49,606 nt of DNA from the NCBI GenBank assembly GCA_025352105.1, contig JANXUB010000009.1, positions 1 through 49,606 on the forward strand. The letters are read 5' to 3'. The notes below the pieces were generated by a model. The model ran no database searches, had not been told where the DNA came from, and saw nothing but the letters and a program-made list of their open reading frames with translations. Position numbers and translations under genes: made by a program. The DNA is from Burkholderiales bacterium (lineage in GTDB: Bacteria > Pseudomonadota > Gammaproteobacteria > Burkholderiales > Casimicrobiaceae). Shown here piece after piece: positions 5,584 through 41,693 of the stretch (its first letter is position 1; each line of letters begins with the position of its first letter).

Positions 5584-5621
5584 TGCCAAGCATCAAAATA
5601 CCGAACACATAGCGTTGAATC

Positions 5622-9929: not shown

Positions 9930-9972
9930 GTGAGCTTACTACATCCAATACGTATTTTAGCGGCCTTTTCCT

Positions 9973-20904: not shown

Positions 20905-20920
20905 AGAATCAGGAAACTTT

Positions 20921-22084: not shown

Positions 22085-23099
22085 TAGCGAACGCGGGGCG
22101 TGCAGTACCGTCCTGGCGGATAAGCCCAAATCGATGCTCTGCATTAGTGGGATCTGGCCCGGAATCAACGTGACCATAGAAGTAAATTGAACCTACGCCA
22201 GGAATCAACGAGAGCAAGGATCGTGTCGCACAAACGTGGTTGCGCTGAACGGACTCAGTGCTGCCTGGGCTTTTCCAAAGCGTTGCGACGTGTGTTGGCC
22301 ATCCGATTTCGGTGATATGCAACGGTTTACCGCGGCTGTAGCCGAGAATGCGCCTCACCCAGTCGGATGCGACTTGCGGCGTTGATGCTTTGCGCGACCA
22401 GACATACGCGTGGACCGATATACCGTCCACCAGATCGAGCAGGCCAAGTTCGACGAGCGCACGCAGATAGCCTCTATCAACTGCCTCGGGCGTTACAGAG
22501 CCAGCTATTATTTTTATATCCGGGGCGCTTCGACGAATGACCGGAACGACTTCTCGCAAAAGAGCAAGATAGTCTTCAGGCTTTCCCGGCGATCCGCCAC
22601 CGATGCTGATGTCCCATTCATTCCAGATTTCAAGGGCGGCTACTTGCCGGTGCACGTTTTCGGCGACGAATTGCGCGTAGCGCGTAAACGCCAAACGTTC
22701 AGCGGCAGTCGAGGGTTTCATACCGCGGGTGTGAACCGGGTGACCATAACCCAGTAGCAGGACGGGGAAGATACCGCTTGACCGGCTAGCAGCCAAGAGC
22801 GCTTTGATCGGGGCCGGTAGGTCGTAAACGCCGGGCGAAGTCTCGGTATGCGACCAGTAAACCTCGTCGCGGACACCGGCCCAGCCGTTGGCTGCTAATC
22901 TGGGTATTTCGACCGCCGGGTCGCCTACACCCTGTGCAAAGTGGGTGGAAATACCCAGCGTGATTGATCCCGAGTTGGGTATCCGTGCGGTTTCGGCCTC
23001 TGCTTGAATGCACGCCCAAAGCAGCCAAAAGGCCAGCCACCGCAAGCGCTTGGGTGGGTTGTTGTCGTTTTTACCCACGCTCGCGGAAGGCAGGTGCAT
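22065..23099 (-). CDS. Secreted GH-A clan glycoside hydrolase (PslG-like role)
   Basis: 344 residues. A basic N-terminus and a hydrophobic segment (WLAFWLLWACIQAEA) indicate Sec export to the periplasm. The (beta/alpha)8 hydrolase features of clan GH-A are visible: acid/base E161 in IWNEWD and nucleophile E264 in HITEIGWPT, with AYVWS and YFYGHVD between and after. Hydrolases of this type in polysaccharide loci (PslG of Psl is the known case) trim or release polymer in the periplasm. It is the last gene of the minus-strand operon. The ATG at 23099 overlaps the preceding polymerase gene by 29 bp; a GTG at 23078 would cut the overlap to 8 bp. Neither has a clear ribosome site. Confidence 0.85.
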   Translation of the reverse strand: MHLPSASVGKNDNNPPKRLRWLAFWLLWACIQAEAETARIPNSGSITLGISTHFAQGVGDPAVEIPRLAANGWAGVRDEVYWSHTETSPGVYDLPAPIKALLAASRSSGIFPVLLLGYGHPVHTRGMKPSTAAERLAFTRYAQFVAENVHRQVAALEIWNEWDISIGGGSPGKPEDYLALLREVVPVIRRSAPDIKIIAGSVTPEAVDRGYLRALVELGLLDLVDGISVHAYVWSRKASTPQVASDWVRRILGYSRGKPLHITEIGWPTHVATLWKSPGSTESVQRNHVCATRSLLSLIPGVGSIYFYGHVDSGPDPTNAEHRFGLIRQDGTARPAFAINTCDR

Positions 23100-24324
23100 C
23101 AGCAGAAATTCGCGCTACCAGTGCAAGAATCAGAGCGACTGAAGCGTTTTCGATCGCGTTCGTCGTAAGCCCGTAGGTTAGGGTGACGAGGAACAGAACT
23201 AGTGGTACGCGCCCAAGCCGCTCTTTGCTGATTCTTAGATGCGCAACTTGCCAGCAAACATAGAGGGTCAGGGGGGCAGCAAGCATCCCCAGCGTCACAA
23301 AGATGTACAGGTGAAGATTGTCACCTGCATTAAAAAGATGTGGCTCGAAATAGGTTTGGGCGGTTCCCAATGCGCCCAAACCGCGCCCCGTAAGCCACGT
23401 ACCGCGCTCAAACCAGAGATCGAATGCTTCCGGCCACATGTTGCGCAGGCGATCCTCGTACGAGTGCAACGACGATGACGTATTGAGCGCATTGAGGCGA
23501 GGGTTGTAGAGCAGACCGATCAGCGGCATTGCCCAGCCGAATGCCACAAGAACCGCGATAGTCGGAATGCGGATGCGGCGTAAGGCAACCGGAGATATCT
23601 CAGTGCACATGACGGCAACGGCGAGCACAACGAGCACCGTTTTTGAGTTGGTTAACCAGATACAGTAGGCCGTGGCACTGTACATGACTACTCGCCACGT
23701 ACGCTTAGCTGTGTGACCGCAGGCCACGGTAAGCAGAATGACCGATTGAATGGCGGCATCAAACGACGCGCGTGACACGCCGCTGTAGCGCTGCACGTCA
23801 CCCGACCACCATTCGCGGCCGGTCTCAACGGACACGCTGCCGACCGAATATTCGAAGCCGACCCACGGAAAAGCCAGATAGGGATTGAGCACTACGGCGA
23901 CAACTACGCATGCCCACAATACGCCGATCATGCGGGGCCAGTGACCAATCCTCTGCCAAGCTGGTGCCAGCAGTAAACCGATGTAGATGGGGATAAAGAG
24001 ATAGGTGGCGAAGGCGACCTGCGCTGGGTTCGGAATCATTAGCATGCCAACGAATATGGAGTATCCAAGGCACGCACACAACATCAGCGCGCGCGCACCA
24101 AAAGCACCCTTGGCAAACTGATAGGCGAGGGTGAGCATTGCGACGGCCAATCCACCGATGATCGGAAGGTACGCCGCAACCGCAAGCCCTGCGCTCGCCA
24201 ACATCCAGCGCAGTGGTCCAGAAAAAATCGTCGACAGCATGAATGCGAGTGCGCCGATCAATTGCAATCGATTGAGCCACTGCGGTTGTTCGGCTGCGAA
24301 TTGCCGATTACCTGGGTTGATCAC
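23071..24324 (-). CDS. O-antigen/EPS polymerase-like membrane protein (Wzy type)
   Basis: About 417 residues, nearly all hydrophobic, with 10-12 predicted TM helices. A large periplasmic loop near the C-terminal third contains SSSLHSYEDRLRNMWPEAFD, then RGLGALGTAQ and NAGDNLHLY. This is the layout of Wzy polymerases and O-antigen ligases, which join lipid-linked repeat units in the periplasm. The frame extends to 24501, but that extension is Arg-rich, lies inside the upstream glycosyltransferase and has no family features. I therefore place the start at the GTG 24324 (VINPGNRQFAAEQP), preceded by AGAGG at close spacing and overlapping the upstream gene by 17 bp. Confidence 0.8.
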   Translation of the reverse strand: MINPGNRQFAAEQPQWLNRLQLIGALAFMLSTIFSGPLRWMLASAGLAVAAYLPIIGGLAVAMLTLAYQFAKGAFGARALMLCACLGYSIFVGMLMIPNPAQVAFATYLFIPIYIGLLLAPAWQRIGHWPRMIGVLWACVVVAVVLNPYLAFPWVGFEYSVGSVSVETGREWWSGDVQRYSGVSRASFDAAIQSVILLTVACGHTAKRTWRVVMYSATAYCIWLTNSKTVLVVLAVAVMCTEISPVALRRIRIPTIAVLVAFGWAMPLIGLLYNPRLNALNTSSSLHSYEDRLRNMWPEAFDLWFERGTWLTGRGLGALGTAQTYFEPHLFNAGDNLHLYIFVTLGMLAAPLTLYVCWQVAHLRISKERLGRVPLVLFLVTLTYGLTTNAIENASVALILALVARISADAPAFRERG

Positions 24325-25528
24325 AAACCTCTTCGAGCAAATTCTCGTAGGCATCTGCCTGACGCTCGGGGCGAAACGCCAAAGACCGTTGCATCGCGGC
24401 CGAGCTGTGCGCCAGGAGCATCGCCGGGGAATCGATATAGCCCCGAATGGCTGTTGCGAGCGCTTCAACGTCGCCAGAGGTGACAACCGTTCCGCAGTCA
24501 AGCCGCGGAATTTCTGGCAAGCCTCCCTGATCCGACACTATGACCGGTCGTCCGAATACAAGCGACTCAAAGGCGACGTTGCCAAGCCCCTCAAATGCGC
24601 GCGATGGCACAGCGACGATATCTACGCACGAAAAAAAAGAATGCGGCGGCTGTTGCCCGAGAAAGCTTGACTGCGGAACGCCATACTCGCGGATCAGGCT
24701 CTGGATGTACGCTGGTTTACCCTCGCCAGCGATCAGCAAGCGGGCTCCAGTGCCTTCTAGTTTTCGCCACGCTGCGCAAAGCGTATCAATGCCTTTTTCG
24801 CCTTCGACCCGCCCCATAAATCCAATGGTCAAGCCATGATTTGGTAGTGCGACGCTAGGCAGCGGCGGACAGGTTTTTGGCCACTCGCCGCGCCACGAGT
24901 TGTGTACCACGCGCTTTGTTTTGTGTGAGCCAAACATGCCAAACTGCGCATTACGATCCAGGATTGCCTGACTCACCGCGATGACCGCCGTCACATGGTG
25001 TTGTGCCGCACGTCGCGTGGTGCTCAGAACGCGACATGAGGTGCATTGTTTAGTGCATGCCGTGCCGCCACGAAACATCGCAGTTTGCGGACAGATTAAA
25101 GACTGGTCGTGGATAACGTGGATCACTGGAATTTTGCGCTTCGCGGCCTGCCACCACACATTGCAAGACCATCCTTGAAGATTGTGGGTCAGCAGCATAT
25201 CGGGGCGGTCGGCGTCGAGTGCGTGCCCAAGAATATTTCCCATTGCCGGGTTCCACGCGTCTCGCAGATGCCATGCGAATGTCTGCAATTTCGGGCGAGT
25301 TGCGCCATCAAATGGCCAGTAGAAATTGCGCAGTCCGACATACTTTCCCTGAAAGTGCTCTGACACATGATCCGCGACCACGGCGTCGGTCGGTACGGTC
25401 GACATGACACGAATGCTGTGGCCTCTTGCAGCAAGGGAGTTTGAGACGGTAGCAACGGTTCGCTCGGCACCACCCACCAGGTAGGGAGGTTGCAACGTAT
25501 TTACGTGAAGAAGTTTGATTTTTTTCAT
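24308..25528 (-). CDS. Glycosyltransferase, GT4 family
   Basis: 406 residues starting MKKIKLLHVNTLQPPYLVGG, the usual glycine-rich acceptor-side loop. The centre has a cysteine group (CPQTAMFRGGTACTKQCTSC) seen in a subset of GT4 enzymes. The donor half has GFMGRVEGEKGIDTL, LLIAGEGKP and SRAFEGLGNVAFESLVFGRP with the paired glutamates. Its ATG overlaps the flippase stop by 4 bp (ATGA), so it is translationally coupled within the operon. Likely a cytoplasmic enzyme building the repeat unit on the polyprenyl carrier; the sugar is unknown. Confidence 0.88.
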   Translation of the reverse strand: MKKIKLLHVNTLQPPYLVGGAERTVATVSNSLAARGHSIRVMSTVPTDAVVADHVSEHFQGKYVGLRNFYWPFDGATRPKLQTFAWHLRDAWNPAMGNILGHALDADRPDMLLTHNLQGWSCNVWWQAAKRKIPVIHVIHDQSLICPQTAMFRGGTACTKQCTSCRVLSTTRRAAQHHVTAVIAVSQAILDRNAQFGMFGSHKTKRVVHNSWRGEWPKTCPPLPSVALPNHGLTIGFMGRVEGEKGIDTLCAAWRKLEGTGARLLIAGEGKPAYIQSLIREYGVPQSSFLGQQPPHSFFSCVDIVAVPSRAFEGLGNVAFESLVFGRPVIVSDQGGLPEIPRLDCGTVVTSGDVEALATAIRGYIDSPAMLLAHSSAAMQRSLAFRPERQADAYENLLEEVCDQPR

Positions 25529-26751
25529 AAGACTCCGAGAGACTTGCTAACGCGCCACACAAAAAAGACTTCGCAAAGTGCAATCGCGCATGCACTTCCA
25601 AAAGCACCCCACAGCATTGAGCAGGGGACAAGTAGCACCCACTGCAGCAGCAGCCCCCACCGCATCGCCAACCAAAAGTGTCGGGCGCGGCCAGCTGCCA
25701 CGTACGCGCGAAGCTCCATGCCTCGCACCAAGACGTGCAATGCCATCCAAATGGCCAATATTTGTAAGACTGACGACACATGATGTGAGTCGGAAAACTT
25801 CGATCCGGCAATCAGCGTTATCCAGAAGGGCGCACCAACGAACAGCACAATTGCAGCGCCCAGCGCAGCAGCGCCGAGCTTCATCAATTCGGGGGCACGC
25901 ACCAGACTTGACGGGAGGGCCGCGCCCGCTTTGTAGCTCCTCGCCCAGCCGGGTAATTTCGCTTGCAGTATTGGCTGGAACATGGCGTATCCGGTTCGGG
26001 AAAGCTTGTCGCACAGCGCGTAGATGCCGGCTTCAGCGGTTCCCGACACGAGCCCGAGCACAATTACCGGTACGCTTCCCATGGCTTGCATTTGAATTTC
26101 CGGAACGTACGACGGGCGAGCGCGTTTCACTAACAACCACGCCAGCCGCGAGCTAAATCGACCGTAACTGGGCAGCCGATGTTTTCCGCGCACCAGATGC
26201 GCGACGATTCCCGAGGCTAACGTTGCACTGCTCTGCAGCGCGATGGCAATCGCTACGTCGTCGGGACTGTGCACCATGAGGAACACAAGAATTACTGCGA
26301 GGCCTCGGCCTGCGAGGTGATGGATGGCCGTGTACTGACTCTGCTCGGTCGCCAGGAAGTAGTAGGTGGGGAACGATAGTGTGCCGAGCACATTCAGCAT
26401 CGCTAGCGCTAGCAGAAACGGGCTTCCGTTCCACGCATTGAATGTCGCGATCAGAGCCCACAAAACGCATGAACTCACCAAAGCAAGAATCGCTCTGATG
26501 AGCTGCGTCGCAGTAAAGACGCGCTGTATTGATATCGATGAATGTTGTCGGTGCGCAAGCGCGCGGATGGCGGTTCCGTTAATGGCGCTGTCGCACGCGA
26601 GCACCACCAGAAAGGTCGCGGCAACAGTCCAGGACAACAACCCAAAGCCCTCAACGCCTAAAGTTCGTGCGAGATAGGGCACAGTAAGCAGAGGCAGGAG
26701 CGTGTTGGCGATCTGCACAACGTAGAGACCGCCAAGATTGCGCTTGTTCAA
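25525..26751 (-). CDS. Polysaccharide flippase (Wzx-type, MOP superfamily)
   Basis: 408 residues with about 12 hydrophobic segments. The N-terminus is typical of Wzx: GGLYVVQIANTLLPLLTVPY, then LARTLGVEGFGLLSW. The family moves lipid-linked repeat units across the inner membrane. The start is a TTG at 26751 that overlaps the stop of the Wzz-like gene (TTGA, 4 bp), which points to coupled translation. The gene lies between the chain-length and glycosyltransferase genes, as expected in a Wzx/Wzy pathway. Confidence 0.87.
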   Translation of the reverse strand: MNKRNLGGLYVVQIANTLLPLLTVPYLARTLGVEGFGLLSWTVAATFLVVLACDSAINGTAIRALAHRQHSSISIQRVFTATQLIRAILALVSSCVLWALIATFNAWNGSPFLLALAMLNVLGTLSFPTYYFLATEQSQYTAIHHLAGRGLAVILVFLMVHSPDDVAIAIALQSSATLASGIVAHLVRGKHRLPSYGRFSSRLAWLLVKRARPSYVPEIQMQAMGSVPVIVLGLVSGTAEAGIYALCDKLSRTGYAMFQPILQAKLPGWARSYKAGAALPSSLVRAPELMKLGAAALGAAIVLFVGAPFWITLIAGSKFSDSHHVSSVLQILAIWMALHVLVRGMELRAYVAAGRARHFWLAMRWGLLLQWVLLVPCSMLWGAFGSACAIALCEVFFVWRVSKSLGVL

Positions 26752-27920
26752 GACTTTGCCTTGAGTAAATTCAAAATTTCGCGCAAAAATTCTTGTGTCT
26801 TCGGGTTTGCCGCCTGATGCTTCGCAAGCACAAACATAAACATAATAAAAAAGCCCACACCTGCCCCAAGCGTGGCGTTGATTGATCGTCGCGGACTGAT
26901 CTGTTTAGTAGGCGCCACTGCGCGATCAAGAATTTTTATCAAAGAAAGATCACGCGTTTCGTCCACCTTGGACAACTCGGCGATGCGGGAAACGATTTCC
27001 AGAAGTCCTTCCTGAAGCTTTGCATCGCGTCGCAAACGGGAAACTTCCTCCGCAGTTTCGTTGGCAGAGGACAGCGATACATGCAACGAGTTTTGACCAC
27101 CTTCGGTTCTTCGCTCCATTTGGCTGTAGCGCGCGCGAAGGGCCCCCAGTTGAGCTTCAACCCGTTGCAGTTCGGGATTGCCGGGCGTGGCGTAAGCGCG
27201 CATCGCTGCGGCAGCCGAAGCAATCGACGTAATTTGTGATTGCAGTTCCGCCGCAGTGGAGATCACGCTCTCCTCCTGACCTTTGATTCGCGCAAGTCCA
27301 GTGCGCCGTTCCGCTTCGCGCAACCTTGATTCCGCCTGCACCAATCTTCCTCGCGCGTCAGCCAGCCACGGTGCATAGAAATTGTTGCGCCTTTGCCGCT
27401 CGTCGCTGGCCAGTCTGCGAGAGACCTCATACATCTGCTCGATGGCAGCGTTGCAAAGTGTGGCCGACAGCGCGGCGTCTTTGTCGCTTACCTCGATTAC
27501 GATGATTCCGTCCTTGCCAAGCGTAGTCGCCAGATTCGCATTCAAGCGACGTTCAGCATCGTCAATCGTCTCAACGCGGTAGTGCGCTACGAGTTGGTGC
27601 GCTTCAATGAGCGGCAGCAAGACCGAGCGGCTGCGCAGGATGCCGAGATACAGCTCAGACGGGTTTTTTTGGCCAGCAGCGCTGGCTGCAAGATCGCCGG
27701 AGCCGCCCACCAACATCATGAGATTGCTGGCTACAGTTGAGCTGACTTGCGGAGGTAACACCCGCGCCTGCGCCCGAAACACTGGCTCGATAATAAAAAA
27801 CGCCACCAATCCAGCGAGTAGTCCGAACAACGTTCCAGCGAACAGCAGATTGCGTGACTTCACGATCGCTACGACCGCAGCACCCAACGGGCGCTCCGAG
27901 AGTCGGATTCCGGTAGCCAC
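26748..27920 (-). CDS. Chain-length determinant (Wzz/PCP family) without kinase domain
   Basis: 390 residues with the two-TM layout of polysaccharide co-polymerases. TM1 contains LLFAGTLFGLLAGLVAFFII, and TM2 near the C-terminus contains GAGVGFFIMFMFVLA. A long, mostly helical periplasmic part lies between, preceded by the Wzz core (FRAQARVLPP, YLGILRSRSVLLPLI). The proline-rich segment before TM2 (AVAPTKQISPRRS) is a family feature. No Walker motifs or tyrosine cluster follow TM2, so this is not a Wzc-type kinase. It probably sets polymer length and contacts the exporter encoded just upstream, separated by only 3 bp. Confidence 0.85.
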   Translation of the reverse strand: MATGIRLSERPLGAAVVAIVKSRNLLFAGTLFGLLAGLVAFFIIEPVFRAQARVLPPQVSSTVASNLMMLVGGSGDLAASAAGQKNPSELYLGILRSRSVLLPLIEAHQLVAHYRVETIDDAERRLNANLATTLGKDGIIVIEVSDKDAALSATLCNAAIEQMYEVSRRLASDERQRRNNFYAPWLADARGRLVQAESRLREAERRTGLARIKGQEESVISTAAELQSQITSIASAAAAMRAYATPGNPELQRVEAQLGALRARYSQMERRTEGGQNSLHVSLSSANETAEEVSRLRRDAKLQEGLLEIVSRIAELSKVDETRDLSLIKILDRAVAPTKQISPRRSINATLGAGVGFFIMFMFVLAKHQAANPKTQEFLREILNLLKAKS

Positions 27921-27923
27921 GGT

Positions 27924-30335
27924 CTAGAAGCCTCTAAGGATACGAATGCCAGCAGCGCCCAGTCCGAACTGATACAGGATTTGTGTCCAGTCCTTGATCG
28001 AGCGGGTCAATGACACCCGATCCGGGCTTTCGGGAACGATCACCGTGTCGCCCGGCGCGAGCGCCATGCTGAGATCCATCCGCTTGCCCAGAATGCCTGC
28101 TTCGCCGCTCAGCACCGTGCCATCCGCACGCAACAAATGCAGGCGATCCAGATCGCCGTACCGTGCAGCGCCACCAGCCTGACGAAGGTAATCGGAAAGG
28201 CGCTTGCTGCTGCCGTACAAGTAGGTTCCTTCATGCGCCACAGCGCCAACGACGCCAATGGTTGCGGGCACCGGCGGAACGTAGATCGCGTCGCCGTCTT
28301 CGAGCGCGACATCGGGTAAGCGCTCTGTCGATGCATCTTGCGGTAACAACTCGAAAATGATTCGTCCGCTTGCCTTTGCCGCTCGCAGTTTGGCAATTAA
28401 TGCTTTCAGATTGTCTGCTTCACTCGGAGCGGCGAGAGCTTCTTCTTGCGACGTAAGATTGCGAGCGCGCGTCGCGAAATGACGCTGGAATTCTTGCTCC
28501 AGCTGATCGACGGCCTCATTCATGCGCGCCTGCTGAAACTGGCGCGTGCTTTCGCGCGAAAGTTCAATGCCGTAGACGTAAGCCTCTCCGCTCAAGCCAC
28601 CTGCCCGTGCAATGAGCTGACGCAGCGAAGTTCCATGGGCTACTGAATACATGCCTGCGTTAAGCACCTCGCCCTCAATCTTTACGTACCGGGTGCGCTG
28701 CTCAGCGCGAATGCGGAAGTCTGCCTTCGAAAATATGGTAATGGTGTCACCCGGCGCGAGTAGCAGGTCATTCTGAGGATCGCGCTTGTTGACGGCGGAT
28801 TCAAGGTTAAACGGGAGCAATTTGGGCGATGTTGAACGACGGTCGATGCGCTCGACCACTGCATAGTCCCAATTGATCTCGGGCATTTCGCGTCGAATTT
28901 CAGGTGCACGGCGTTCAGATAGCCGACTCAGTGTGGTTTGCTGGTTGCGCGCTGCCCAGTAGACAGGCGGCACCAGCGCATCGGCGTTCGGAATCAAGTC
29001 GCTGACTCTCATGCCATCGCGGTACGCGACTCGCAGCGGAAGCGCAACGAATCCGGACAAGGTGACCGTGTTTTCGAGGCGAGGGGAAATGGGAACAAAT
29101 GTGAATAGTTCTCCATCCTGTACGGGTCTGGCCAGACCGCTGTTGTCGAGCACTACGATTTCTATCCTTCGCTCACGATGTCCAACGATGCGTTCAACAA
29201 CGGCTTGGCCGGCGCGACCGGTGGTTGAAACTCCGCCAGCTAACGCAAGTAGTTGCGCTACGGTCATACCAGTTTTCAATTGGAATACAGCGGGCACATT
29301 GACGCTCCCTCCTACCGCAGCAAACCCGTCGGCTATCGGGAAGTGAACAATATCTCCGTTGCGGATCGGTACATCGCTACCGTTATTTCCGAAGGCAAGA
29401 AAATCGTATAGATCGATTTCGGCGACGGCCTCGCCGCCGCGGCGCAGTTGAACCCGTCTCAGATTTGCGCGTTCGAGCACGCCGCCTGAATGAAATGCGG
29501 CAGTAAGCAGCGTGCTTTGCGACGGTAACGTCACACTCCCCGGTTTTTTTGCTGCACCGGTGATGTGGATAAGGACAGGCTGCGTAGCCCCGACCGACGT
29601 CGAAAGCTCAAAGTTCTTGAACTGCTTTTGCAAGGCGCCGCGCACCACGCTATCAAGCTGGTCGCGTCGAAGGCCCGCCACTGTGAGAGTTCCTACGCGC
29701 GGGATGTAGAGTTGACCCCGGCGATCAACGATACCTACGTGCTCAATGTCGATTTGTCCCCACGCGCGGGTGGAGATCTCGTCCCCGGCGCGAACGATGT
29801 AATTGGTCGGCAGCGGCAATTGCTCTGGAGTGACGAAGGCCGTGGGGCTGGCGAACGCGGCGTCTCCAAAGCGGGCAAGGCGAGTGCCCAATGACTGTTC
29901 AACGAAGTCATCGAATTCAAATCGCAGCGGATTGAGCGGCGGCACGGTCGGACCCGCTTGAGGCACGTCAACCCCGGTGCCAATTGCCTTGTCAGCGCTT
30001 CCTCTGCTATCGATACGCGTCTCTACGGTGGTCGACAAGCGCAGCGACGGCGCACCACTACTGGAAGGCCTATCGATAATCTGCACTGGAGGTGTTGGCG
30101 AGATCGTCCGACCGCTTTGCCGACCCTGCCGCGACGACGATTCACTTTCCGACTGCAGTGCCCCCAATGGAAGGTCGACTGACGGCGTCAGCGAAAGAAG
30201 ATCCTTCGCCTGCGACACAGAATTGACTTGCGCGCTGGAGTCAGCTGCAAGCACTGCGCTGAGGAACCAGAAACCAGCAAGTAGCTTCGCGCCCTTTACG
30301 CGGCTGGCCGAGAGTCGTGTCGAAATGGGATTCAT
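27924..30335 (-). CDS. Wza-like outer-membrane polysaccharide exporter with several SLBB domains
   Basis: 803 residues. The start is placed at 30335 (MNPISTRLSASRVKGAK) because a normal Sec signal follows, ending near AADSSAQ; the frame continues 7 codons upstream. The Poly_export domain is visible as NYIVRAGDEISTRAWGQIDI and YIPRVGTLTVAGLR. Several SLBB-like beta-grasp units follow (HITGAAKKPGSVTLP, VGGSVNVPAVFQLKTGMTVA, KIEGEVLNAGMYSV, GVVGAVAHEGTYLY). No lipobox cysteine is seen in the signal region, unlike classical Wza. It probably forms the periplasm-to-surface conduit. It lies 22 bp downstream of the initiating transferase. Confidence 0.88.
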   Translation of the reverse strand: MNPISTRLSASRVKGAKLLAGFWFLSAVLAADSSAQVNSVSQAKDLLSLTPSVDLPLGALQSESESSSRQGRQSGRTISPTPPVQIIDRPSSSGAPSLRLSTTVETRIDSRGSADKAIGTGVDVPQAGPTVPPLNPLRFEFDDFVEQSLGTRLARFGDAAFASPTAFVTPEQLPLPTNYIVRAGDEISTRAWGQIDIEHVGIVDRRGQLYIPRVGTLTVAGLRRDQLDSVVRGALQKQFKNFELSTSVGATQPVLIHITGAAKKPGSVTLPSQSTLLTAAFHSGGVLERANLRRVQLRRGGEAVAEIDLYDFLAFGNNGSDVPIRNGDIVHFPIADGFAAVGGSVNVPAVFQLKTGMTVAQLLALAGGVSTTGRAGQAVVERIVGHRERRIEIVVLDNSGLARPVQDGELFTFVPISPRLENTVTLSGFVALPLRVAYRDGMRVSDLIPNADALVPPVYWAARNQQTTLSRLSERRAPEIRREMPEINWDYAVVERIDRRSTSPKLLPFNLESAVNKRDPQNDLLLAPGDTITIFSKADFRIRAEQRTRYVKIEGEVLNAGMYSVAHGTSLRQLIARAGGLSGEAYVYGIELSRESTRQFQQARMNEAVDQLEQEFQRHFATRARNLTSQEEALAAPSEADNLKALIAKLRAAKASGRIIFELLPQDASTERLPDVALEDGDAIYVPPVPATIGVVGAVAHEGTYLYGSSKRLSDYLRQAGGAARYGDLDRLHLLRADGTVLSGEAGILGKRMDLSMALAPGDTVIVPESPDRVSLTRSIKDWTQILYQFGLGAAGIRILRGF

Positions 30336-30357
30336 CGTCGTTACTTTCCAGTGCAAG

Positions 30358-31776
30358 TCAATACGCGTTCTTTGTCGAGATCACGATCATCAGTGTACGC
30401 GCCAGAATGTAGAAATCGAACCACACCGACCATTGCCTCACATACTCGAGATCGAACTGAACACGCTTCTGCATCTTGTCGAGGGTGTCGGTCTCGCCGC
30501 GCCACCCATTGACCTGCGCCCAGCCCGTCAGTCCTGGCTGGACCTTATGGCGCACCATATATCCCCGAATCAATTGACGGTACTGTTCGTTGTGCGCCAT
30601 GGCATGAGGCCGCGGTCCGACCAGGCTCATCTGGCCAGCGAGAATATTCAACAATTGCGGTAGTTCATCGATAGATGTCCGCCGAATGAATTTGCCGACT
30701 TTCGTCACTCTCACGTCATTCTTGCTTGCCTGCGTCGTGTCCCCTGAAATGCTGGTCGAAGCGGCCATCGAGCGAAATTTCCAGATCTTGAACGTTTGCC
30801 CGCTCATGCCATAACGAAGCTGTCGAAAGAAAACTGGCCCTTTACTGTCCCACTTGATGGCGATGGCAGTGGCCAGCAGAAGAGGACTGACAGCAATGAG
30901 CATGAGCGCGGCGAGCGTACGGTCAATGATTGCCTTCAGCGCCCAACCGGCGTCGACTGAAGGTGCCTCGCAAACGCCGAAAAGCGGTATTCCACCAAGC
31001 ATTTCTAGTCTTGCTCGAATCGGTTTGTGGTTTGCAAAATCGTGAACTAAGTAGACTGACGCCGTCGTGTCTTCCAGAGCTTCAAGAATCGGTCCAACGC
31101 GCATCTCCGCTTCCATCGGCAACGAGATGAAGACGCGATCAACTTTGAGGCGGGCCACCTGTTCGGCGACATCAGCGAACTGACCCAGAAGCGGGAAATC
31201 TGGGCACGGCGGGACACGCGCCGCGACGCGATCTTCAAGAAATCCATGCACATTGACAGCAAGCCAAGTATCGTCTCGAATGGTACGAGCGAGCTTGATG
31301 TTGGATTCGTTGATTGCGACGAAGAGCACTGATACGCGTTCGCGGCGATGGAAAAAGCGCAGCGCAATCCAAACGGTCGCTGGCAGACAGAGCGCCGTAC
31401 TGAAGCACGCCAGCAGCCCCCAGACGAGTATTGCTAACCAGGAGATTGATTGACCCGCAAAATTCAAAAGCGCAACGACGCCCAAAAACCACAGGAAGCC
31501 GACGAGCGTCCTAAACAGCGCGACGGAAAAAAAGTATGACCAACGATCCTGCTTATTCAGTACGGCGTCAATGGGTATTCGGCAATTGAACATAACCAGA
31601 CAGGCCGCAATGATCAAAAGGAAGTTTGTGGTTTCTGCGGGACCATTGATCTGGGTCGCTGATAGCGCGTAGCAACCAGCAAGCAACGTAACTGCTCCGG
31701 GCACTATCCGGGTCAGCAGCGAGAACACTCCCGTTGAAATTGCCAGTAACGCGCCTTGGTGCCCATCTCTTTTCAT
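30358..31776 (-). CDS. Polyprenyl glycosylphosphotransferase (WcaJ/PslA-like initiating enzyme)
   Basis: 472 residues from the ATG at 31776, chosen because GAGGG lies at good spacing before it; the frame runs on to 31872 without family content. The N-terminal half has four hydrophobic helices and a CoA-binding-like middle domain ([19 protein letters not shown]). A TM hairpin near [19 protein letters not shown] follows. The catalytic domain has [44 protein letters not shown] and [13 protein letters not shown]. The enzyme transfers a sugar-1-phosphate, often glucose, to undecaprenyl phosphate and starts repeat-unit synthesis. It is the first gene of the seven-gene minus-strand operon. Confidence 0.9.
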
Positions 31777-32025
31777 CTTGATTCCCTCAGCCCTGAATTG
31801 AATATGTCGTCTCGCAGATCGTGTCTTGGCAGAGACGCGCGTCGTTGCAAGACCTCGTCGCAAGGTAGCCACTAGGCCTATCGTGCGAGAAATTGCGTTT
31901 CTAGCGATGAATCATATTTGCCTAGCAATCCACTGCACATGCGCAAAAATACCTACGCCGTTGCCAACAGCGTATAGGTAGTTTTTCGGATGCAGCGGTG
32001 AGAACTGGCATTTATCATTTTCCGT
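31777..32025. promoter_or_regulatory. Divergent promoter region between EPS operon and cyclase operon
   Basis: This 249-bp gap separates the start of the exopolysaccharide operon (minus) from the start of the cyclase-STAS operon (plus). Promoters for both must lie here or just beyond. The GAGGG ribosome site of the minus gene lies just upstream of 31776, and a copy of the dispersed motif lies at 31975-32000. No sigma-factor consensus could be assigned with confidence. Confidence 0.5.
31975..32000 (+). repeat. Copy 3 of the dispersed motif, upstream of a cyclase gene
   Basis: TAGGTAGTTTTTCGGATGC followed by AGCGGTG aligns with TAAGTAGTTTTGCGGATGC followed by GCGGTG at 3031-3054, with two substitutions and one inserted base. 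It ends 25 bp before the ATG of the diguanylate cyclase gene, so it would overlap the promoter or the leader. Confidence 0.5.
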
Positions 32026-32898
32026 ATGTCGAATCTTCCAGCTATGCTCGAACGCAATAAGACTCAGCTCATGTCTGCTGAAGACGAAGCGGCTTTGCGT
32101 GAAGAAGTAATGCGCCTCAAGAGCGAGCACTACGACCTGCAAATTGTTCTGCAAAACGCACTTGATCACGGGGATGTGATGCAACAGGAGCTCGCCGAAC
32201 GCAACTCCGCGCTAAATCGTGAAGTGGCCGAGCGATCTCGCATCGAGTCGCAGCTGAAATCCCTTGTCGCGAAACTGCAAGCGGAGTGCTCTGAGTACGA
32301 GGTTCTTGTTGATATCCTCGCGCAGCATGGCGACGCCCTTGAGGATTCTCGCAGCCAAGAGATGGAAGTCCTTGAGAAGGAGGTACTCACGGACGCGCTT
32401 ACGCAATTGCCGAATCGCCGTGCGCTCGATCAGAAGTTGCGCTTTCATTGGAACGAGGCTATGCGCGATGGAGTGCCACTTTCAATCATTTTGGGTGACG
32501 TGGATCATTTCAAGCTTTACAACGATTCCCTAGGACACCCCGCAGGCGACGAATGCTTGCGCCGCGTTGCGAGGGCGCTTCTTGCCGGGACGCGTCGCCC
32601 AAGCGACATGGTTGCCCGCTACGGCGGTGAGGAGTTCTGCCTGGTACTGCCGCACACCAATTCGGCAGGTGCGCAAACCGTCGCAAACTGCTTGATGGCT
32701 GCGCTGGCAGGCGCTGCCATAGTGCATCCGAAGTCATGTCACCCAAACGTGACATTGAGCTTGGGGATTGCGACCTTCGTCAAGAAAGGGAGCACCATCC
32801 TCAATCCGGAACAGCTTGTGGAGCAGGCAGATGCCGCCCTATATGAGGCAAAGCATGCCGGTCGTAATCGATTTCTTGTGTTTGAGGGCAAAGTATGA
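32026..32898 (+). CDS. Coiled-coil diguanylate cyclase (SiaD-like)
   Basis: 290 residues, no membrane segment. Residues ~15-120 are heptad-rich coiled coil (ALREEVMRLKSEHYDLQIVL, then a second block around EVAERSRIESQLKSLVAKLQ). The GGDEF domain from LTDALTQLPNRRALD follows. It carries an intact GGEEF at 200-204 and an RxxD site (RPSD) five residues before. This layout matches SiaD, where the coiled coil gates the cyclase through a partner protein. The stop overlaps the next start by 4 bp (ATGA), so the cyclase and the ATP-binding regulator are made together. Confidence 0.92.
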   Translation: MSNLPAMLERNKTQLMSAEDEAALREEVMRLKSEHYDLQIVLQNALDHGDVMQQELAERNSALNREVAERSRIESQLKSLVAKLQAECSEYEVLVDILAQHGDALEDSRSQEMEVLEKEVLTDALTQLPNRRALDQKLRFHWNEAMRDGVPLSIILGDVDHFKLYNDSLGHPAGDECLRRVARALLAGTRRPSDMVARYGGEEFCLVLPHTNSAGAQTVANCLMAALAGAAIVHPKSCHPNVTLSLGIATFVKKGSTILNPEQLVEQADAALYEAKHAGRNRFLVFEGKV

Positions 32899-33479
32899 AG
32901 TCCAGATTGATCGGAAATTTTCGTCCGGATTCCGACGATACTGAGCATTTGTCAGTTGTCTTTTCCAAGGGACGCTTACCGGTCAAGCACCGCTGGCGGA
33001 ACAACGGACTGACGGCAGATTTTGTTGCAAACTACGCTTCAACTTTTCTCGATCCGAGAGATAGCGATGATCCGCGAAAATTGAAAAGAATTCGCGAAAT
33101 CAAGGACTCAGTAAGCTATGTGGCCAACGAGTTACTGGAAAATGGATTGAAGTACCATGAGGATAGCGATGAAGACAAGGTCGGGCTTCGATTGCGCTGC
33201 GAAATTCACGATGACGGCTTGATTCTTAACGTCAGCAATTGCGCGGCGACAGACGCGGTCGCAGCGCTAGAGGCGCTAGCCAGGGAGCTGCTTGTTCGTG
33301 ACGTCACCGAGCTTTATTTTGAAAAACTTGAGCGAAATAGTGGCGAAAGTGCGGGCCTCGGTCTGATCACGATGGTTCACGACTATCAAGCACAGCTTGC
33401 CTGGCGATTGTTGCTACACGAAACGGGTAGGGTCACCGTTTGGACCCAAGCTTTTATTGCGCTCCCTCTTGAGTGCTAG
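32895..33479 (+). CDS. slr1658-like ATP-binding regulator (SiaB/anti-sigma-kinase relative)
   Basis: 194 residues. The segment SYVANELLENGLKYHEDSDE resembles the N-box of GHKL ATPases, and SAGLGLITMVHDYQA resembles the G-box region. This is the pattern of the slr1658/DUF6272-type regulators related to SiaB and to anti-sigma-factor kinases. Such proteins phosphorylate, or bind, a STAS-type partner. The partner here would be the product of the gene 25 bp downstream. I recognise the family from memory. Kinase activity cannot be inferred from sequence alone. Confidence 0.7.
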   Translation: MKSRLIGNFRPDSDDTEHLSVVFSKGRLPVKHRWRNNGLTADFVANYASTFLDPRDSDDPRKLKRIREIKDSVSYVANELLENGLKYHEDSDEDKVGLRLRCEIHDDGLILNVSNCAATDAVAALEALARELLVRDVTELYFEKLERNSGESAGLGLITMVHDYQAQLAWRLLLHETGRVTVWTQAFIALPLEC

Positions 33480-33504
33480 TTCAGGAATTTGATGAGGTAC
33501 GACC

Positions 33505-33870
33505 ATGCGAGTTACCGGCGAAAACTATCAGGCGGAGTACGACGAAAAGGTCGGCACCATTTTTCTAAGGGGAAATTTTCGGCTCAACGGACTGGAAGAG
33601 TATCGGCCCGTCATGGACGCGCTGCTTGAAGCGCTAGCCGGGTCAAATCCGTTGACGGTAGACCTTATGAAACTCGATTTTCTGAACAGTTCAGGTATCG
33701 CAATCTTGTCAAAATTTGTGCTTGAAGCACGCAAGAGCGCTTCGACAATACTCATATTCAGTGCCAATGAAGACATTACATGGCAGTCGAAGTCGCTCAA
33801 GAATTTGCAGCGCCTCATGCCCTCGCTGGAACTTAACTTTCAATGTTCACCAACCACTCCCGCTGCCTGA
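33505..33870 (+). CDS. slr1659-like STAS-domain partner protein
   Basis: 121 residues, a single STAS-like domain. It opens MRVTGENYQAEYDEKVGTIF, then FRLNGLEEYRPVMDAL. The phosphosite loop is DFLNSSGIAILSKFV. The C-terminus WQSKSLKNLQRLMPSLEL is characteristic of the slr1659-type regulators, which occur next to slr1658-type genes. In STAS antagonists a Ser in the loop before the helix is phosphorylated; one of the Ser pair in NSSG would be that residue. A GAGG ribosome site lies 8 nt before the ATG. It probably cycles between phosphorylated and free forms and controls the adjacent cyclase (inference). Confidence 0.78.
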   Translation: MRVTGENYQAEYDEKVGTIFLRGNFRLNGLEEYRPVMDALLEALAGSNPLTVDLMKLDFLNSSGIAILSKFVLEARKSASTILIFSANEDITWQSKSLKNLQRLMPSLELNFQCSPTTPAA

Positions 33871-33943: not shown

Positions 33944-34065
33944 AACTGGCGATAGAGCATACTGTTGGCATTTAGCCATTTAAACAATCGCTCGTTTCCG
34001 CGTGATGATCAAGGACAAGAGCGACCTGAAATTCAATCGCTGTATTGACAAAGAGAGAAGATATC

Positions 34066-35622
34066 GTGCTTCGAATCGCCAGCCGCTCAGCCCTTTGGCT
34101 TGTTGCGTTTTCCACCATTTCGACAGCACATGCTGTGACGTGTCCGTTTGACAATGGCGGCTCAGACGCCTTGAATGATGGCGTTGTATTAGCCCGCTAT
34201 GCCCTGGGCGTCACGGGATCGCCAATGATCGCCAACACCCGCTACTCGAGTCTCGATCCAGCGCAAGTCAAGCTAAACATCGAGTGTGTTGGGTGCGCGC
34301 TCGACATGAACGGAGATGGTCGGGTCGACACGGTGGACACCACGATCATCGCGCGCCACTTGGCCGGGTTTTCCGGCGCATCCCTGACAGCAGGGCTAGC
34401 GTTGGGCTCACCCGTTTCGGCGTCCCGCGCGGATACTGCTTCAGTCGTCAGCTTTCTGGCTGCGGGCTGCGCTGCTGGCGGTGCTGCGAATTCGTATGTG
34501 CAAGGTGGAAATGCCTTTGGTGCAGCTGCGGTTTTGGGCAACAGCGACGCTTTCCCGCTTACCGTAAAGACGGGGGGCAGCGCAATAAAAGTTGTCCTTG
34601 CAAACGGTGACGGAGTTGGCGTCTATCCAGGCACAAACGCAGCGTTTCTAAATCCGCCCAACGTAATTAGCGGTCTGGCGGGTAATCTCTTTGCGGGAGC
34701 GGCAGGTGCCACCATCTCAGGGGGGGGCGCGAACACGACGGACTGCGACGATGTCGACACGTTGCAAACGACCGGTGCCAAGCGAACCTGCGTCAATGTC
34801 GTCACCGGCGACCACTCGACGATCGGTGGTGGACGTGGCAACCGGGCAAATAGTCGCGGCACCGTTGCGGGGGGCATCAGCAACTTCGGGTCAGGTATCG
34901 ACTCAACGGTAGGCGGCGGCATCCGCAATGCCGCCTACGGCAGTTACGCAGTGGTAGCGGGCGGCGATACCAACAAGGCTACGGGCAGTCAGGCGATGGT
35001 TCTGGGCGGCGTCGCCAATCTTGCGTCAGGGACAGGCAGCGCGGCCTCGGGCACCTTCGCAAAAGCGCGCGCTGATGGCATGTTTGCCTGGAGCGATTCG
35101 CTCTTAGTGGATTTTGATCCCGCCGCTCTCGGCGAACGTGGCGCGTCCATTACCAACGGCGCGCCGCTAGCGAACTCCTTCTACGTAAGGGCCACGGGCG
35201 GGGTGAAGTTTGTGACTGGCGTTAACCCTGTTACGGGAGCATTCACGCAGAGTTGCGAAATTAGCCCCGCTGGGACAGGCTGGTCTTGCTCAAGTGATCG
35301 CAATTTGAAGCACATGATCACAGAAGTGTCACCCACCGATATTCTGTCGCGACTGATGACGGTTCCGGTGAGCAGCTGGGCATTTATCGGACACACCAGC
35401 AAGCAACTAGGCCCAATGGCGCAAGACTTTTACCGTGCGTTCAAACTGGGTGATTCAGACCGACATATCAACTCGGTGGATGCACAAGGGGTCGCGTTTG
35501 CTGCGATTCAGGGGCTCGCCCAGATTGTCGCCGAAAAGGAAGCAAAAATTGCCAGTCAGGCGGTCGAGCTTTCTGCCTTGAGGCGCGAGATAGACGCAAT
35601 CAAAAGTCGACTTGGTATGTGA
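34066..35622 (+). CDS. Secreted protein: EF-hand/dockerin-like loop, head-like repeats, S74 chaperone domain
   Basis: 518 residues from the GTG at 34066, chosen because a signal peptide (LWLVAFSTISTAHA, cut before VTCP) follows and GAGAGAAG precedes it; a TTG at 34045 is the alternative. Residues 80-91 are a perfect EF-hand loop (DMNGDGRVDTVD) followed by TTIIARHLAGF, as in one half of a dockerin; a degenerate first half lies at ~29-48. The middle is Gly/Ala-rich with YadA-head-like repeats (STIGGGRGNRANS, STVGGGIRNAAYGSYAV, NKATGSQAMVLGG). The C-terminus is a Peptidase_S74 chaperone domain: SDRNLK with S410 and K415 in the spacing of the self-cleaving dyad. It ends in a coiled coil. Probably a trimeric surface or secreted fibre. 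Confidence 0.82.
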   Translation: MLRIASRSALWLVAFSTISTAHAVTCPFDNGGSDALNDGVVLARYALGVTGSPMIANTRYSSLDPAQVKLNIECVGCALDMNGDGRVDTVDTTIIARHLAGFSGASLTAGLALGSPVSASRADTASVVSFLAAGCAAGGAANSYVQGGNAFGAAAVLGNSDAFPLTVKTGGSAIKVVLANGDGVGVYPGTNAAFLNPPNVISGLAGNLFAGAAGATISGGGANTTDCDDVDTLQTTGAKRTCVNVVTGDHSTIGGGRGNRANSRGTVAGGISNFGSGIDSTVGGGIRNAAYGSYAVVAGGDTNKATGSQAMVLGGVANLASGTGSAASGTFAKARADGMFAWSDSLLVDFDPAALGERGASITNGAPLANSFYVRATGGVKFVTGVNPVTGAFTQSCEISPAGTGWSCSSDRNLKHMITEVSPTDILSRLMTVPVSSWAFIGHTSKQLGPMAQDFYRAFKLGDSDRHINSVDAQGVAFAAIQGLAQIVAEKEAKIASQAVELSALRREIDAIKSRLGM

Positions 35623-36817: not shown

Positions 36818-38977
36818 GTGAACGACATCAGTATTAGCCAGAAATCAACGGCGAACTTGGGCTCGGTCTCACTAGCGGCATCATTTGGTTTATTCGTCAT
36901 CGTCGTCGTCGCTGCCAGCACGCTGATCCAGCTTTCGATGCAGCAACAGGTTATTGCCGACGCGCAGGCGAGGCTTGTGGTGAACACCCTAGGCCTGTCA
37001 GAGGCGATTGAGCTGTCCGATCAGTCAAGAATTCAGCTCGCGGCGCAGCGAGTCTTCCAAGACGGCGATGCAAGGAGACTTTTAATCACCGACACCGTTT
37101 CGCAACCGATTGCTGATTTACGACCCAAGACAACCAGTGTCACCACGACGACATCGCTCACGCTCAGTGATTGGTTGCCGCGCGCAATCTGGTCCAAGAC
37201 GCTCCATCGGGCGCTCGATAGTCAGGGACTTTCAACCGGTACGTTGGCTGTCGACTACGAATTCAAAGCGTTGGCGCAGTCGTTTTTCTGGATACTTGTC
37301 GTGGCGGCTGGCTTACTTGGCTTCGCGGTCGTTCTTGCGCGGAGAACACATCAAAGGCTCGACCAGGCGTTGCGGCTACCAACGCGATCAATTGAAGAAC
37401 TCTCCGAACAAATCGCCCAGACAGGCGCGCTTTCGACACGGCTGCCCAAGCTTGCTGGCAACGATTTTGGTCGCTTTGAGTGGGCTGTGAATCGGCTGAT
37501 GGAGCAATTGGAGCGTCAGGAGAAGAAGTCGTCTCTGCACCTTGCGCGTCTTGAAGTAGAAGTTGACAAACGCACGAAGGCGCTCGCGGCGACCAATGAT
37601 CGCCTGAGACGGCTGGCGTACACGAGCAGCGAAACCTCACTCCCGAACCGGGCAGCTTTTCTTGACAGATTGCATAAGCTTTGCGCAACGCCATTTTCTG
37701 ATCGCGAAGTCCTCGCTGTGTTTGTTTTGCGAATGACGCGTGTGCGCTACGCAAACGAAGCTTTTGGATTCGATGTTGGTGACTTGATGATCGAATCAGC
37801 TGCAGCGAGTTTGGCTGCGGCAGCGTCGCCATCCTCGGAGATATTTCATTTGGGCGGTGCCGAATTTGCCGTCGTACAAATTAATGCACCACAAGAAATG
37901 AGCGTAGTTGCCGATGATTTATTGCGTCTGGACGAAGCTCCATTTGTGCATCGCGGCGCTACCTTGACGCTACTGCCAAAAATTGGTTACGCAGTTTTCC
38001 CGCTTGATGCAACCAACGTCGATGACTTGACGCGGTTTGCGATGCTCGCGTTGAACGTTGCTACATCGGCAAACGGTGCAAAAAAGGTCGTCCACTACTC
38101 GCCCGCGCTGCTTCAGGAGACTATCGAATTAGTTCATATCGAATCAGCAATCAAACGTGCTGTTGATAGCGGACAGTTTGAGCCGTATTTTCAGCCGCGT
38201 ATTGACACCAAAACAGGTCGCGTGAACGGTCTTGAGGCGCTAATTCGTTGGACTAGTCCGGAGCTTGCGAACTACACCAATTATGAATTGATTCCCGTTG
38301 CCGAGAGATCACTGCTGGCCACTGAGTTGGACGCAAAAATGATGCGTAAAGTTGTTCAGTGGCTGGCGCCGCTGGCAGCAGAAGGCATTCGCGTTCCAAT
38401 TGCCATTAACCTCTGTGCGCAAAGTTTTGAGCGACCCGCGTTGCCCGATGAAATCGCGGCCCTAGTGCACTCTCACGGTATCGACATAGGACAGATTGAG
38501 ATTGAACTCGTTGAGACGGTTCTCGTAGAGAATAACGACGTGGTCATGCGTAACTTGATGGCCTTTGGCGACATGGGCATTGGCATCCTGCTCGACGACT
38601 TTGGAACAGGCTATTCGTCATTGCGCCATCTTCGTGATCTTCCAATTTCAACCGTTAAGATTGACCGTATTTTCATCGCTGGTCTGCCAGAACACGCCGC
38701 CTCGCTAGCGATTGTGCAAAGCACCATAGAGCTCGCGAAGAGACTGGGTAAACGCGTTGTGGCCGAAGGCGTGGAAACGTATGCACAGTGGGAAATGTTG
38801 CGCGACATTGGATGCGACGAGGTGCAAGGCTATTTCCTGATGCGCCCGGCGCCTGCGGCCGCTATCGCCAATATGCTGCGACAGCAGTTCGACACGTCCG
38901 TTGGGCACATGTCAGTGGACTTGAGCCACCTTGCTGATGATCACCTTCCAATTGTGCTACCCATCGCCCCCGCTTGA
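36818..38977 (+). CDS. Membrane c-di-GMP phosphodiesterase with degenerate GGDEF (GGAEF-EAL)
   Basis: 719 residues from a GTG start. TM1 lies near 20-40. A small periplasmic part ends at TM2 near 155-170 (FFWILVVAAGLLGFAVVLA), followed by a HAMP-like linker and a coiled coil. The GGDEF domain is degenerate: its signature is GGAEF (346-350), lacking the metal-binding acidic residue, and the NRAAFLDRL start is altered, so it should not make c-di-GMP. The EAL domain looks active: EAL at 473-475 (GLEALIRW), ELVETVLVEN, DDFGTGYSSL, KIDRIFI, VAEGVET and EVQGYF. It should hydrolyse c-di-GMP to pGpG, with the degenerate half as a possible GTP sensor. Confidence 0.92.
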   Translation: MNDISISQKSTANLGSVSLAASFGLFVIVVVAASTLIQLSMQQQVIADAQARLVVNTLGLSEAIELSDQSRIQLAAQRVFQDGDARRLLITDTVSQPIADLRPKTTSVTTTTSLTLSDWLPRAIWSKTLHRALDSQGLSTGTLAVDYEFKALAQSFFWILVVAAGLLGFAVVLARRTHQRLDQALRLPTRSIEELSEQIAQTGALSTRLPKLAGNDFGRFEWAVNRLMEQLERQEKKSSLHLARLEVEVDKRTKALAATNDRLRRLAYTSSETSLPNRAAFLDRLHKLCATPFSDREVLAVFVLRMTRVRYANEAFGFDVGDLMIESAAASLAAAASPSSEIFHLGGAEFAVVQINAPQEMSVVADDLLRLDEAPFVHRGATLTLLPKIGYAVFPLDATNVDDLTRFAMLALNVATSANGAKKVVHYSPALLQETIELVHIESAIKRAVDSGQFEPYFQPRIDTKTGRVNGLEALIRWTSPELANYTNYELIPVAERSLLATELDAKMMRKVVQWLAPLAAEGIRVPIAINLCAQSFERPALPDEIAALVHSHGIDIGQIEIELVETVLVENNDVVMRNLMAFGDMGIGILLDDFGTGYSSLRHLRDLPISTVKIDRIFIAGLPEHAASLAIVQSTIELAKRLGKRVVAEGVETYAQWEMLRDIGCDEVQGYFLMRPAPAAAIANMLRQQFDTSVGHMSVDLSHLADDHLPIVLPIAPA

Positions 38978-41270: not shown

Positions 41271-41693
41271 ATGATTAGATTGGTTTACGTTAGCACTTGC
41301 GCCCAAAACGTCCAGCTGGACGACGTTGAGTCGATTTTGCGCGTCGCAGAATCGTGGAACGCTGATCGTGAGATTAGCGGGATGTTGTGCTGGTCCGGAG
41401 AATTTTTTCTGCAATGTCTCGAAGGCGAGCGTGGCCCGGTAACCCAATGTTTCGCGCACATCGCTCGGGACCGTCGCCATCACTCGGTGGAGCTAATCGT
41501 CAGTTCCCCGACCACCGTTCGCTGGTTCTCAACGTGGGGCATGGGCTTCACGCGACTGATGTCATCGGGCCGTGTCGACCTGCCGAACTTTGCGGGAGGC
41601 AGTTTCAATCCGTATTTGTTGGAGGCAACGGATTTGCAGGATACCTTTGCACGCCTGGCAAGTCAGGCGCAGCGTTTGAGCGTTGACCCTTGA
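41271..41693 (+). CDS. BLUF-domain blue-light sensor
   Basis: 140 residues, a stand-alone BLUF domain binding FAD. The photocycle residues are present: the Tyr of MIRLVYVST, the Asn of SWNADREISGML, the Gln of GEFFLQCLEGE, and a Trp/Met pair in WFSTWGMGF. The segment IARDRRHHSVEL is also typical. No effector domain is fused, so output must be through a partner. Short BLUF proteins are known to act on c-di-GMP enzymes or transcription regulators, which suits this window, but no partner is encoded beside it. The C-terminus ends inside a 14-bp tandem repeat. Confidence 0.9.
   Translation: MIRLVYVSTCAQNVQLDDVESILRVAESWNADREISGMLCWSGEFFLQCLEGERGPVTQCFAHIARDRRHHSVELIVSSPTTVRWFSTWGMGFTRLMSSGRVDLPNFAGGSFNPYLLEATDLQDTFARLASQAQRLSVDP

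Follow-up and report, generated by a model that had tools for sequence, protein, structure and literature searches.

A slr1658/slr1659 gene pair beside a stalked diguanylate cyclase: a candidate SiaBC-like partner switch and a putative docking motif in the stalk

The 49,606-nucleotide stretch of contig JANXUB010000009.1 analysed here (assembly GCA_025352105.1, Burkholderiales, Casimicrobiaceae; hereafter the window) contains three closely packed genes coding for a diguanylate cyclase, a GHKL ATPase of the slr1658 superfamily and a STAS protein of the slr1659 superfamily. The locus raises the question whether the latter two proteins form a partner switch acting on the cyclase and, if so, whether the switch belongs to the SiaABCD system of Pseudomonas aeruginosa (phosphatase SiaA, kinase SiaB, DUF1987 partner SiaC, cyclase SiaD), since an earlier note, made from the sequence alone, had called it SiaBCD-like. 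Our best reading, in which analogy plays a large part, is a SiaBC-like partner switch with a stalk docking code of its own, Sia-like by anatomy and not a member of the Sia system. We assign a probability of roughly 0.77 to the view that the trio and a distant PP2C phosphatase control the cyclase via docking of the STAS protein on the cyclase stalk. It is computation that carries the reading: the proteins fall into the families in question and keep their catalytic and phosphosite residues, the STAS fold is SiaC-like, operons with phosphatase and output enzyme recur, and a stalk motif is tightly linked to slr1659 genes.

The cyclase (290 amino acids (aa), positions 32026-32898, forward strand) has a stalk spanning approximately aa 1-115, followed by a GGDEF domain (163.2 bits, cut-off 23.8). 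With GGEEF at aa 200 and the I-site RPSD at aa 191 it carries the GG[DE]EF and RxxD signature of active diguanylate cyclases, and is predicted to be one. Its gene shares 4 bp (ATGA) with that of the 194-aa ATPase (32895-33479, forward strand), the proposed serine kinase, and 25 bp separate the latter from the gene of the 121-aa STAS protein (33505-33870, forward strand), the proposed switch partner; the open reading frames (ORFs) agree in all these respects with the earlier description. The assignment to the two superfamilies, named after Synechocystis genes, also held, as the ATPase passed the slr1658 model (NF047703, 165.1 bits, cut-off 100) and the STAS protein the slr1659 model (NF047705, 127.1 bits, cut-off 100); the check proposed in the earlier note, a search for a match to a GHKL or DUF6272 model, thus returned a match. 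The ATPase scored below the slr1658_cyano equivalog (NF052618, 170.5 bits, cut-off 200) and narrowly under the cut-off of DUF6272 (PF19788, 24.7 vs. 26.6 bits), which its relative from locus L067 passed with 30.1 bits. It has the N-box NELLENGLKY at aa 78 and GLGL at aa 154, and residues N78, E79, N83 and G156 were invariant across 38 slr1658 rows. Similarly, N61-S62-S63-G64 of the STAS protein was invariant across 40 slr1659 rows, and Ser62 of this NSSG motif (aa 61-64, 33685-33696, forward strand) is the proposed phosphosite. Judged from sequence, a GHKL kinase, a STAS substrate with a serine site and a PP2C, the parts that make up a partner-switching system, are all present. Promoter and terminator scans yielded values close to those of shuffled sequence.

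In the model of the window STAS protein (predicted local distance difference test (pLDDT) 94.2) Ser62 is the first residue of helix 62-76. In a Foldseek search against the PDB the best eight hits by E-value were all SiaC chains (1.1e-5 to 7.4e-5), followed by RsbS (1.8e-3), and by VIA SiaC was again first (Z 12.8, root mean square deviation (rmsd) 2.5, 115 aligned residues), with RsfB next (Z 11.4). SiaC is thus the closest fold to the STAS protein. The kinase fold was assessed on a relative, not on the window protein: in the model of the natural slr1658-slr1659 fusion L113 (pLDDT 81.3, predicted template modelling score 0.65) residues 11-189 had SiaB (Z 13.3, rmsd 3.3, 154 aligned), tied by Z with UsfX, as closest fold and residues 203-319 matched SiaC (Z 11.2); the fusion alignment (A7) excludes separate slr1659 rows, its STAS half consisting of three rows only. 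Profile searches against PDB sequences were weak (SpoIIAA at E 0.0073 with A5, SiaB at E 0.45 with A6, and keratin, at E 0.0021, as the best match of A2), and SiaC was not among the matches listed.

The window shares with SiaABCD the kinase, the STAS-like partner, the PP2C and the stalked cyclase, and the phosphosite N-[ST]-S is common to SiaC (N67-T68-S69) and the window STAS protein. The SiaD stalk contains two partner-binding repeats, and the stalk described below two copies of a proposed docking motif; in the SiaC-SiaD structure T68 of SiaC touches S82 and Q86 of one repeat, the equivalent residues of the other repeat, S50 and Q54, lie 32 residues away, and phosphorylation of T68 blocks SiaD binding (PMC8457831). 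True membership of the SiaABCD system was nevertheless rejected, because all four Sia models remained far below their cut-offs and the SiaD stalk repeat was absent. The scores were 143.2 bits for SiaD (cut-off 290; the generic GGDEF model gave 162.5 on the cyclase), 14.2 for SiaC (cut-off 150), 19.5 for SiaB (cut-off 85), and 49.5 for SiaA with the window PP2C (cut-off 700). SiaD repeats are of the RISDxYQ type and 32 aa apart; RISDxYQ was not found in the window stalk, which has instead DLE..EHGD elements 53 aa apart. The two true SiaD loci detected in 2 of 274 genomes of the class have RISDxYQ-type repeats and gave at most 6.6 bits with our stalk motif models. The gene order differs from siaA-B-C-D. 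The charge of the partner face differs as well: the net charge of STAS helices 62-76 plus 92-104 ranged from +3 to +7 (all 40 rows), that of the 14-residue stalk motif from -5 to -3 (all 28 rows). In two SiaC proteins the helices, bounded by eye, had -2, and -3 or -2; the values for four motif strings of SiaD were between -1 and +1. The partner face, with basic STAS helices and an acidic motif, is thus of opposite polarity to that of Sia. What stands of the earlier SiaBCD-like switch is therefore the kinase-STAS pair with a stalked cyclase, supported by folds, a recurring operon and natural fusions; the cyclase resembles SiaD in joining a GGDEF domain to a coiled-coil stalk, not in its model score or its repeats.

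The switch would work as follows. The slr1658 protein would bind ATP and phosphorylate the STAS protein at Ser62 of NSSG, and a PP2C with a dCache sensor domain would dephosphorylate it upon an extracytoplasmic signal. In one phosphostate, by analogy with SiaC most likely the unphosphorylated one, the STAS protein would dock on the stalk, its basic helices 62-76 and 92-104 meeting the acidic DLE...EHGD motifs there, and would alter the cyclase dimer, so that the GGDEF domain makes cyclic di-GMP (c-di-GMP), which might plausibly serve a neighbouring exopolysaccharide cluster. Phosphorylation, docking, sign of control and target process are all inferred here from conservation and analogy. There are precedents for STAS control of cyclases in SiaC-SiaD, HsbA-HsbD and BgrV-BgrR (PMC8457831, PMC5085249). 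The HsbR-HsbA-HsbD system of P. aeruginosa and BgrSTUWV-BgrR of Sinorhizobium meliloti (PMC5085249, PMC8457831), which we liken to the present system by their descriptions, have a STAS partner switch acting on a cyclase in common with it. It is the first of these that lends some weight to a switch made of the same parts with the opposite sign, in which phosphorylated STAS protein binds the cyclase or the unphosphorylated form inhibits it, as HsbD is reported to bind phosphorylated HsbA (PMC5085249), and nothing in the sequence fixes the sign. We consider this alternative unlikely, given that fold and NSS site resemble those of SiaC, whose phosphorylation prevents binding (PMC8457831).

The earlier note regarded the phosphatase as missing locally, which proved incorrect. 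A 687-aa protein with dCache and SpoIIE/PP2C domains (13896-15959, reverse strand; SpoIIE 107.2 bits, dCache_3 47.1 bits) is encoded within the window, and is our candidate for the cognate phosphatase. Of the 76 PP2C ORFs of the slr1658 loci 69 scored above 150 bits, and 68, the window's included, were retained by requiring also more than 230 aa; the seven below 150 bits were the second PP2C of L081 (122 bits) and six ORFs of 99-274 aa in L042, L045, L090 and L096. Against the 67 other retained ORFs the window PP2C domain scored 156-229 bits, a range whose lower bound is partly circular because of the 150-bit filter. The contrast with the controls is not circular: 14 loci with better SpoIIE matches, chosen from 14 family- or order-level relatives that all lacked an slr1658 match, gave a match in ten cases, the best with 63.1 bits, and none in four. 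An unrooted tree was built from 74 rows, with domains no shorter than 225 aa, thinning at 80% likeness, and eight of the ten control matches (two below 23 bits being excluded). A branch with 95/98 support split the window PP2C and all 65 rows from slr1658 loci from the eight controls. Within the tree the window PP2C pairs with that of L039, a weakly supported (95/54) joining of long branches.

The PP2C nevertheless lies 16 kb from the trio, on the other strand and with the exopolysaccharide cluster in between, and 77 bp upstream of it on the same strand is the gene of a dCache-HAMP-GGDEF protein (16037-17728, reverse strand); phosphatase and a second cyclase may therefore share a transcript. 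A SpoIIE/PP2C search of the own genome returned, besides the stronger match (109.7 bits), which is the window PP2C, a second one of 24.7 bits. These facts would fit a PP2C that is not the cognate phosphatase of the switch, which we judge improbable in view of its far higher scores with PP2Cs of slr1658 loci than with controls, its place on their side of the tree, and the congeners, as none of the 16 carries slr1658 and none has a SpoIIE match above 31.5 bits. The trio and the PP2C were likely acquired jointly. It must be noted that the absence from congeners could reflect mis-binning, because the genome is a draft with contamination.

The stalk of the cyclase contains a repeat with the consensus DLE[IL]xLx[TA]xx[ED]H[GSA]D. 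Copy 1 (aa 37-50, DLQIVLQNALDHGD, 32134-32175, forward strand) scored 52.3 bits with the single-motif model (A3) and was the sole match in the own genome, and copy 2 (aa 90-103, EYEVLVDILAQHGD, 32293-32334, forward strand), a degenerate one, follows exactly 53 aa after copy 1. The single-motif model matched 58 of the 3576 ORFs of the loci. By pattern, 21 of these 58 motif proteins have more than one copy; the spacing, taken from exact pattern positions as the alignment starts of hidden Markov models (HMMs) blur it, is exactly 53 in 17 of the 21, among them L067 with three copies, and different in L064, L077, L098 and L111. The stalks of GGDEF proteins and histidine kinases could be aligned without gaps over 93 residues (18 rows, 17 proteins). 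Among the neighbours of slr1658/slr1659 the motif occurs in proteins of several catalytic types (GGDEF, class III cyclase, histidine kinase), so that the STAS partner probably docks there, as far as sequence can tell. Counted from 0, the motif has T at position 7 and H at position 11, a spacing (i, i+4) that would correspond to that of S82 and Q86 of SiaD.

Alternatively, the motif could be a coil for dimerisation or signal transmission, moving together with the operons without binding the STAS protein. Its location in a gap-free, helical-looking stalk directly before the catalytic domain would suit such a role. A generic coiled coil is made less plausible by the absence of single-motif matches among the 76 PP2C ORFs of the examined locus set, an argument partly offset by a variant of the motif in three PP2Cs of another type. 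The charge opposite to that of the STAS face, the tandem copies in L067 and L077, and six motif proteins of 108-189 aa which follow slr1659 and have no catalytic domain all count against the coil-only explanation, which we find distinctly unlikely. The six small proteins (L069, L070, L091, L115, L113 and L116), four of them with a HAMP-like part, could be adaptors. A 768-aa GGDEF protein (L077:10485-12791), with an N-terminus partly masked, contains five motif copies, two pairs of which are 32 aa apart as in SiaD.

The switch reading also draws on the recurrence of the operon. The contigs of 84,980 species were searched with six slr1658 proteins, and the best 80 of at least 554 loci were analysed, an uneven sample, because the best-scoring loci are those most like the query proteins. 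Neighbours were counted within 4 kb on the same strand, phylum labels were assigned by us, and domain labels come from single-sequence searches, with which the 20 proteins rechecked in Pfam agreed (L064 being a PAS protein). slr1659 was present at 72 of the 80 loci, a PP2C at 62 and a motif protein at 53. In Pseudomonadota (23 loci) the corresponding numbers were 21, 15 and 16, the motif proteins being 12 GGDEF proteins and 4 histidine kinases; in Cyanobacteria (56 loci) they were 50, 46 and 36, and the single locus of Tectomicrobia had all three. Class III cyclases predominate among the cyanobacterial motif proteins (25 of 36), in contrast to the GGDEF protein of the window: 22 were class III cyclases, 2 class III cyclase and GGDEF, 1 had both domains in one protein and 2 were GGDEF, the rest being 3 PAS proteins and the 6 without catalytic domain. 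Among loci with complete context a motif protein was found at 10/12 in Pseudomonadota, 22/35 in Cyanobacteria and 1/1 in Tectomicrobia, and a PP2C at 10/12, 31/35 and 1/1, respectively. The order GGDEF-slr1658-slr1659 recurs in other proteobacteria, more than chance would suggest, and at L034, outside the 80, genes for GGDEF, slr1658, slr1659, a periplasmic-binding-like protein and PP2C stand in a row. Natural fusions join slr1658 to slr1659 (L097, L113, L116) and GGDEF to slr1658 (L067).

At the genome level, 19 slr1658 carriers contained 23 single-motif matches, from 13 genomes, and all 23 were at most 2.8 kb from an slr1659 gene or fragment, the two in G459 adjoining slr1659 fragments below the cut-off; because some of the loci went into building the model, the test lies in the absence of matches elsewhere in the carrier genomes. 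A two-copy stalk model matched strongly in 2 of 398 genomes of the phylum (127.5 and 106.9 bits; next 27.9), both of them among the seven that carry slr1658 over the cut-off, the other five having no such match. Among 60 relatives only the own genome matched it strongly (next 21.2 bits), and a strong match was absent from every sampled genome without slr1658. Weak scores with this model prove little, since 12 of 16 weaker matches in the class sample were not beside slr1658. The other four, within 1 kb of slr1658 or a weak slr1658-like match, were a histidine kinase after slr1659 (L222) and the PP2Cs of L226, L228 and L229, which carry the variant DLQ[MI]LYxGTIEHGE and are divergent from a second, weak slr1658-like gene. 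These PP2Cs (L226:6898-7830, L228:5432-6373, L229:12886-13938), possible phosphatase outputs, differ from the phosphatase of the system (21-27 bits to the window PP2C domain); that of L226 scored 139.5 bits with SpoIIE, and the strong slr1658 gene of its genome (G526) stands at a distance of 14 kb. At L224 a class III cyclase convergent with slr1659 has a still weaker variant (6 bits, single-motif model), and at L225 (G683) no motif variant was seen. Beside a weak slr1658-like gene, L038:5720-6898 and L228:6997-8166 encode proteins with a STAS-like N-terminus followed by a methyltransferase domain; that of L038 has NNA where slr1659 has NSS, and may be a non-phosphorylatable cousin.

Several observations weigh against a switch that acts on the stalked cyclase. 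Copy 2 of the motif in the window is degenerate, and the alignment of the motif with the contact residues of SiaD is our own. On the L113 fusion UsfX (Z 13.2, rmsd 2.7, 129 aligned) ties with SiaB by Z. The phosphatase is distant and in opposite orientation, while the PP2Cs of relatives adjoin their trio, and the draft genome consists of 231 contigs with 3.1% contamination. Six of the 19 carrier genomes had no single-motif match, and none was found in G102, G165, G228, G310 and G330, which belong to one family of another class (L035-L038 are from four of them). In the class sample 7 of 274 genomes carry slr1658 but the own genome alone has a strong stalk match, the other carriers having a weak motif variant or none. 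Finally, at 27 of the 80 loci, 15 of them with complete context, the same strand encodes no motif protein over a distance of 4 kb. The GHKL kinase and STAS antagonist folds are shared with SpoIIAB/SpoIIAA and RsbW/RsbV, whose output is a sigma factor; the output here would be a stalked enzyme. That the slr1658/slr1659 pair controls another target, e.g. a sigma or anti-sigma factor, with the cyclase merely a neighbour, would agree with these 27 loci and with the action of classical partner switches on anti-sigma factors, but is very improbable given the motif beside slr1659 in 23 of 23 matches, the GGDEF-slr1658 fusion of L067 and the way in which the operons alternate between a GGDEF protein, a histidine kinase and a class III cyclase as output.

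Somewhat better than even, in our estimate, are the chances of a broader proposal, that DLE...EHGD is a portable docking code and the slr1659-type STAS proteins a second, charge-reversed SiaC-like branch controlling any enzyme with the repeat in its stalk. Candidate targets would be diguanylate and class III cyclases and histidine kinases, possibly also PP2Cs and adaptors without catalytic domain. A single switch module would then act on different signalling chemistries in organisms ranging from proteobacteria to cyanobacteria, control of the SiaC-SiaD kind would reach beyond one cyclase family to several enzyme classes, and targets would be predictable from sequence. Stalk docking offers a testable mechanism for two superfamilies without described molecular function, as far as the literature searched shows; it names a likely phosphosite, phosphatase and docking site, and hints at how STAS switches select their output enzymes.

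Synechocystis with a disrupted slr1658 gene is impaired in its recovery from iron limitation (PMC7555055, citing Zer et al. 2018), and the partner switch HmpU-W of Nostoc has a STAS output without a defined target (PMC6495340). Among the papers listed, judged by titles and the beginnings of abstracts, subscription journals and preprints aside, none deals with the stalk motif or connects slr1658/slr1659 to cyclases or c-di-GMP, a connection that the earlier note had rightly called little described; slr1658 and slr1659 do not appear in the titles or abstracts of the papers found to mention them, including PMC7555055 and PMC4614683.

The exopolysaccharide cluster between phosphatase and trio (19783-31872), with glycosyltransferases, a flippase, a Wzz-like protein, an SLBB export protein and a WcaJ-like transferase, is a possible downstream target by inference from its location. 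Directly after the trio (34045-35622) a protein is encoded that has a dockerin-like match, narrowly below the cut-off, and an S74 chaperone-of-endosialidase domain. Signalling genes are dense elsewhere in the window (4492-13521, 36818-38977 and 41271-41693), coding for a response regulator with an HD-GYP domain, a PAS-HWE kinase, a hybrid kinase, a GGDEF-EAL protein and a BLUF protein.

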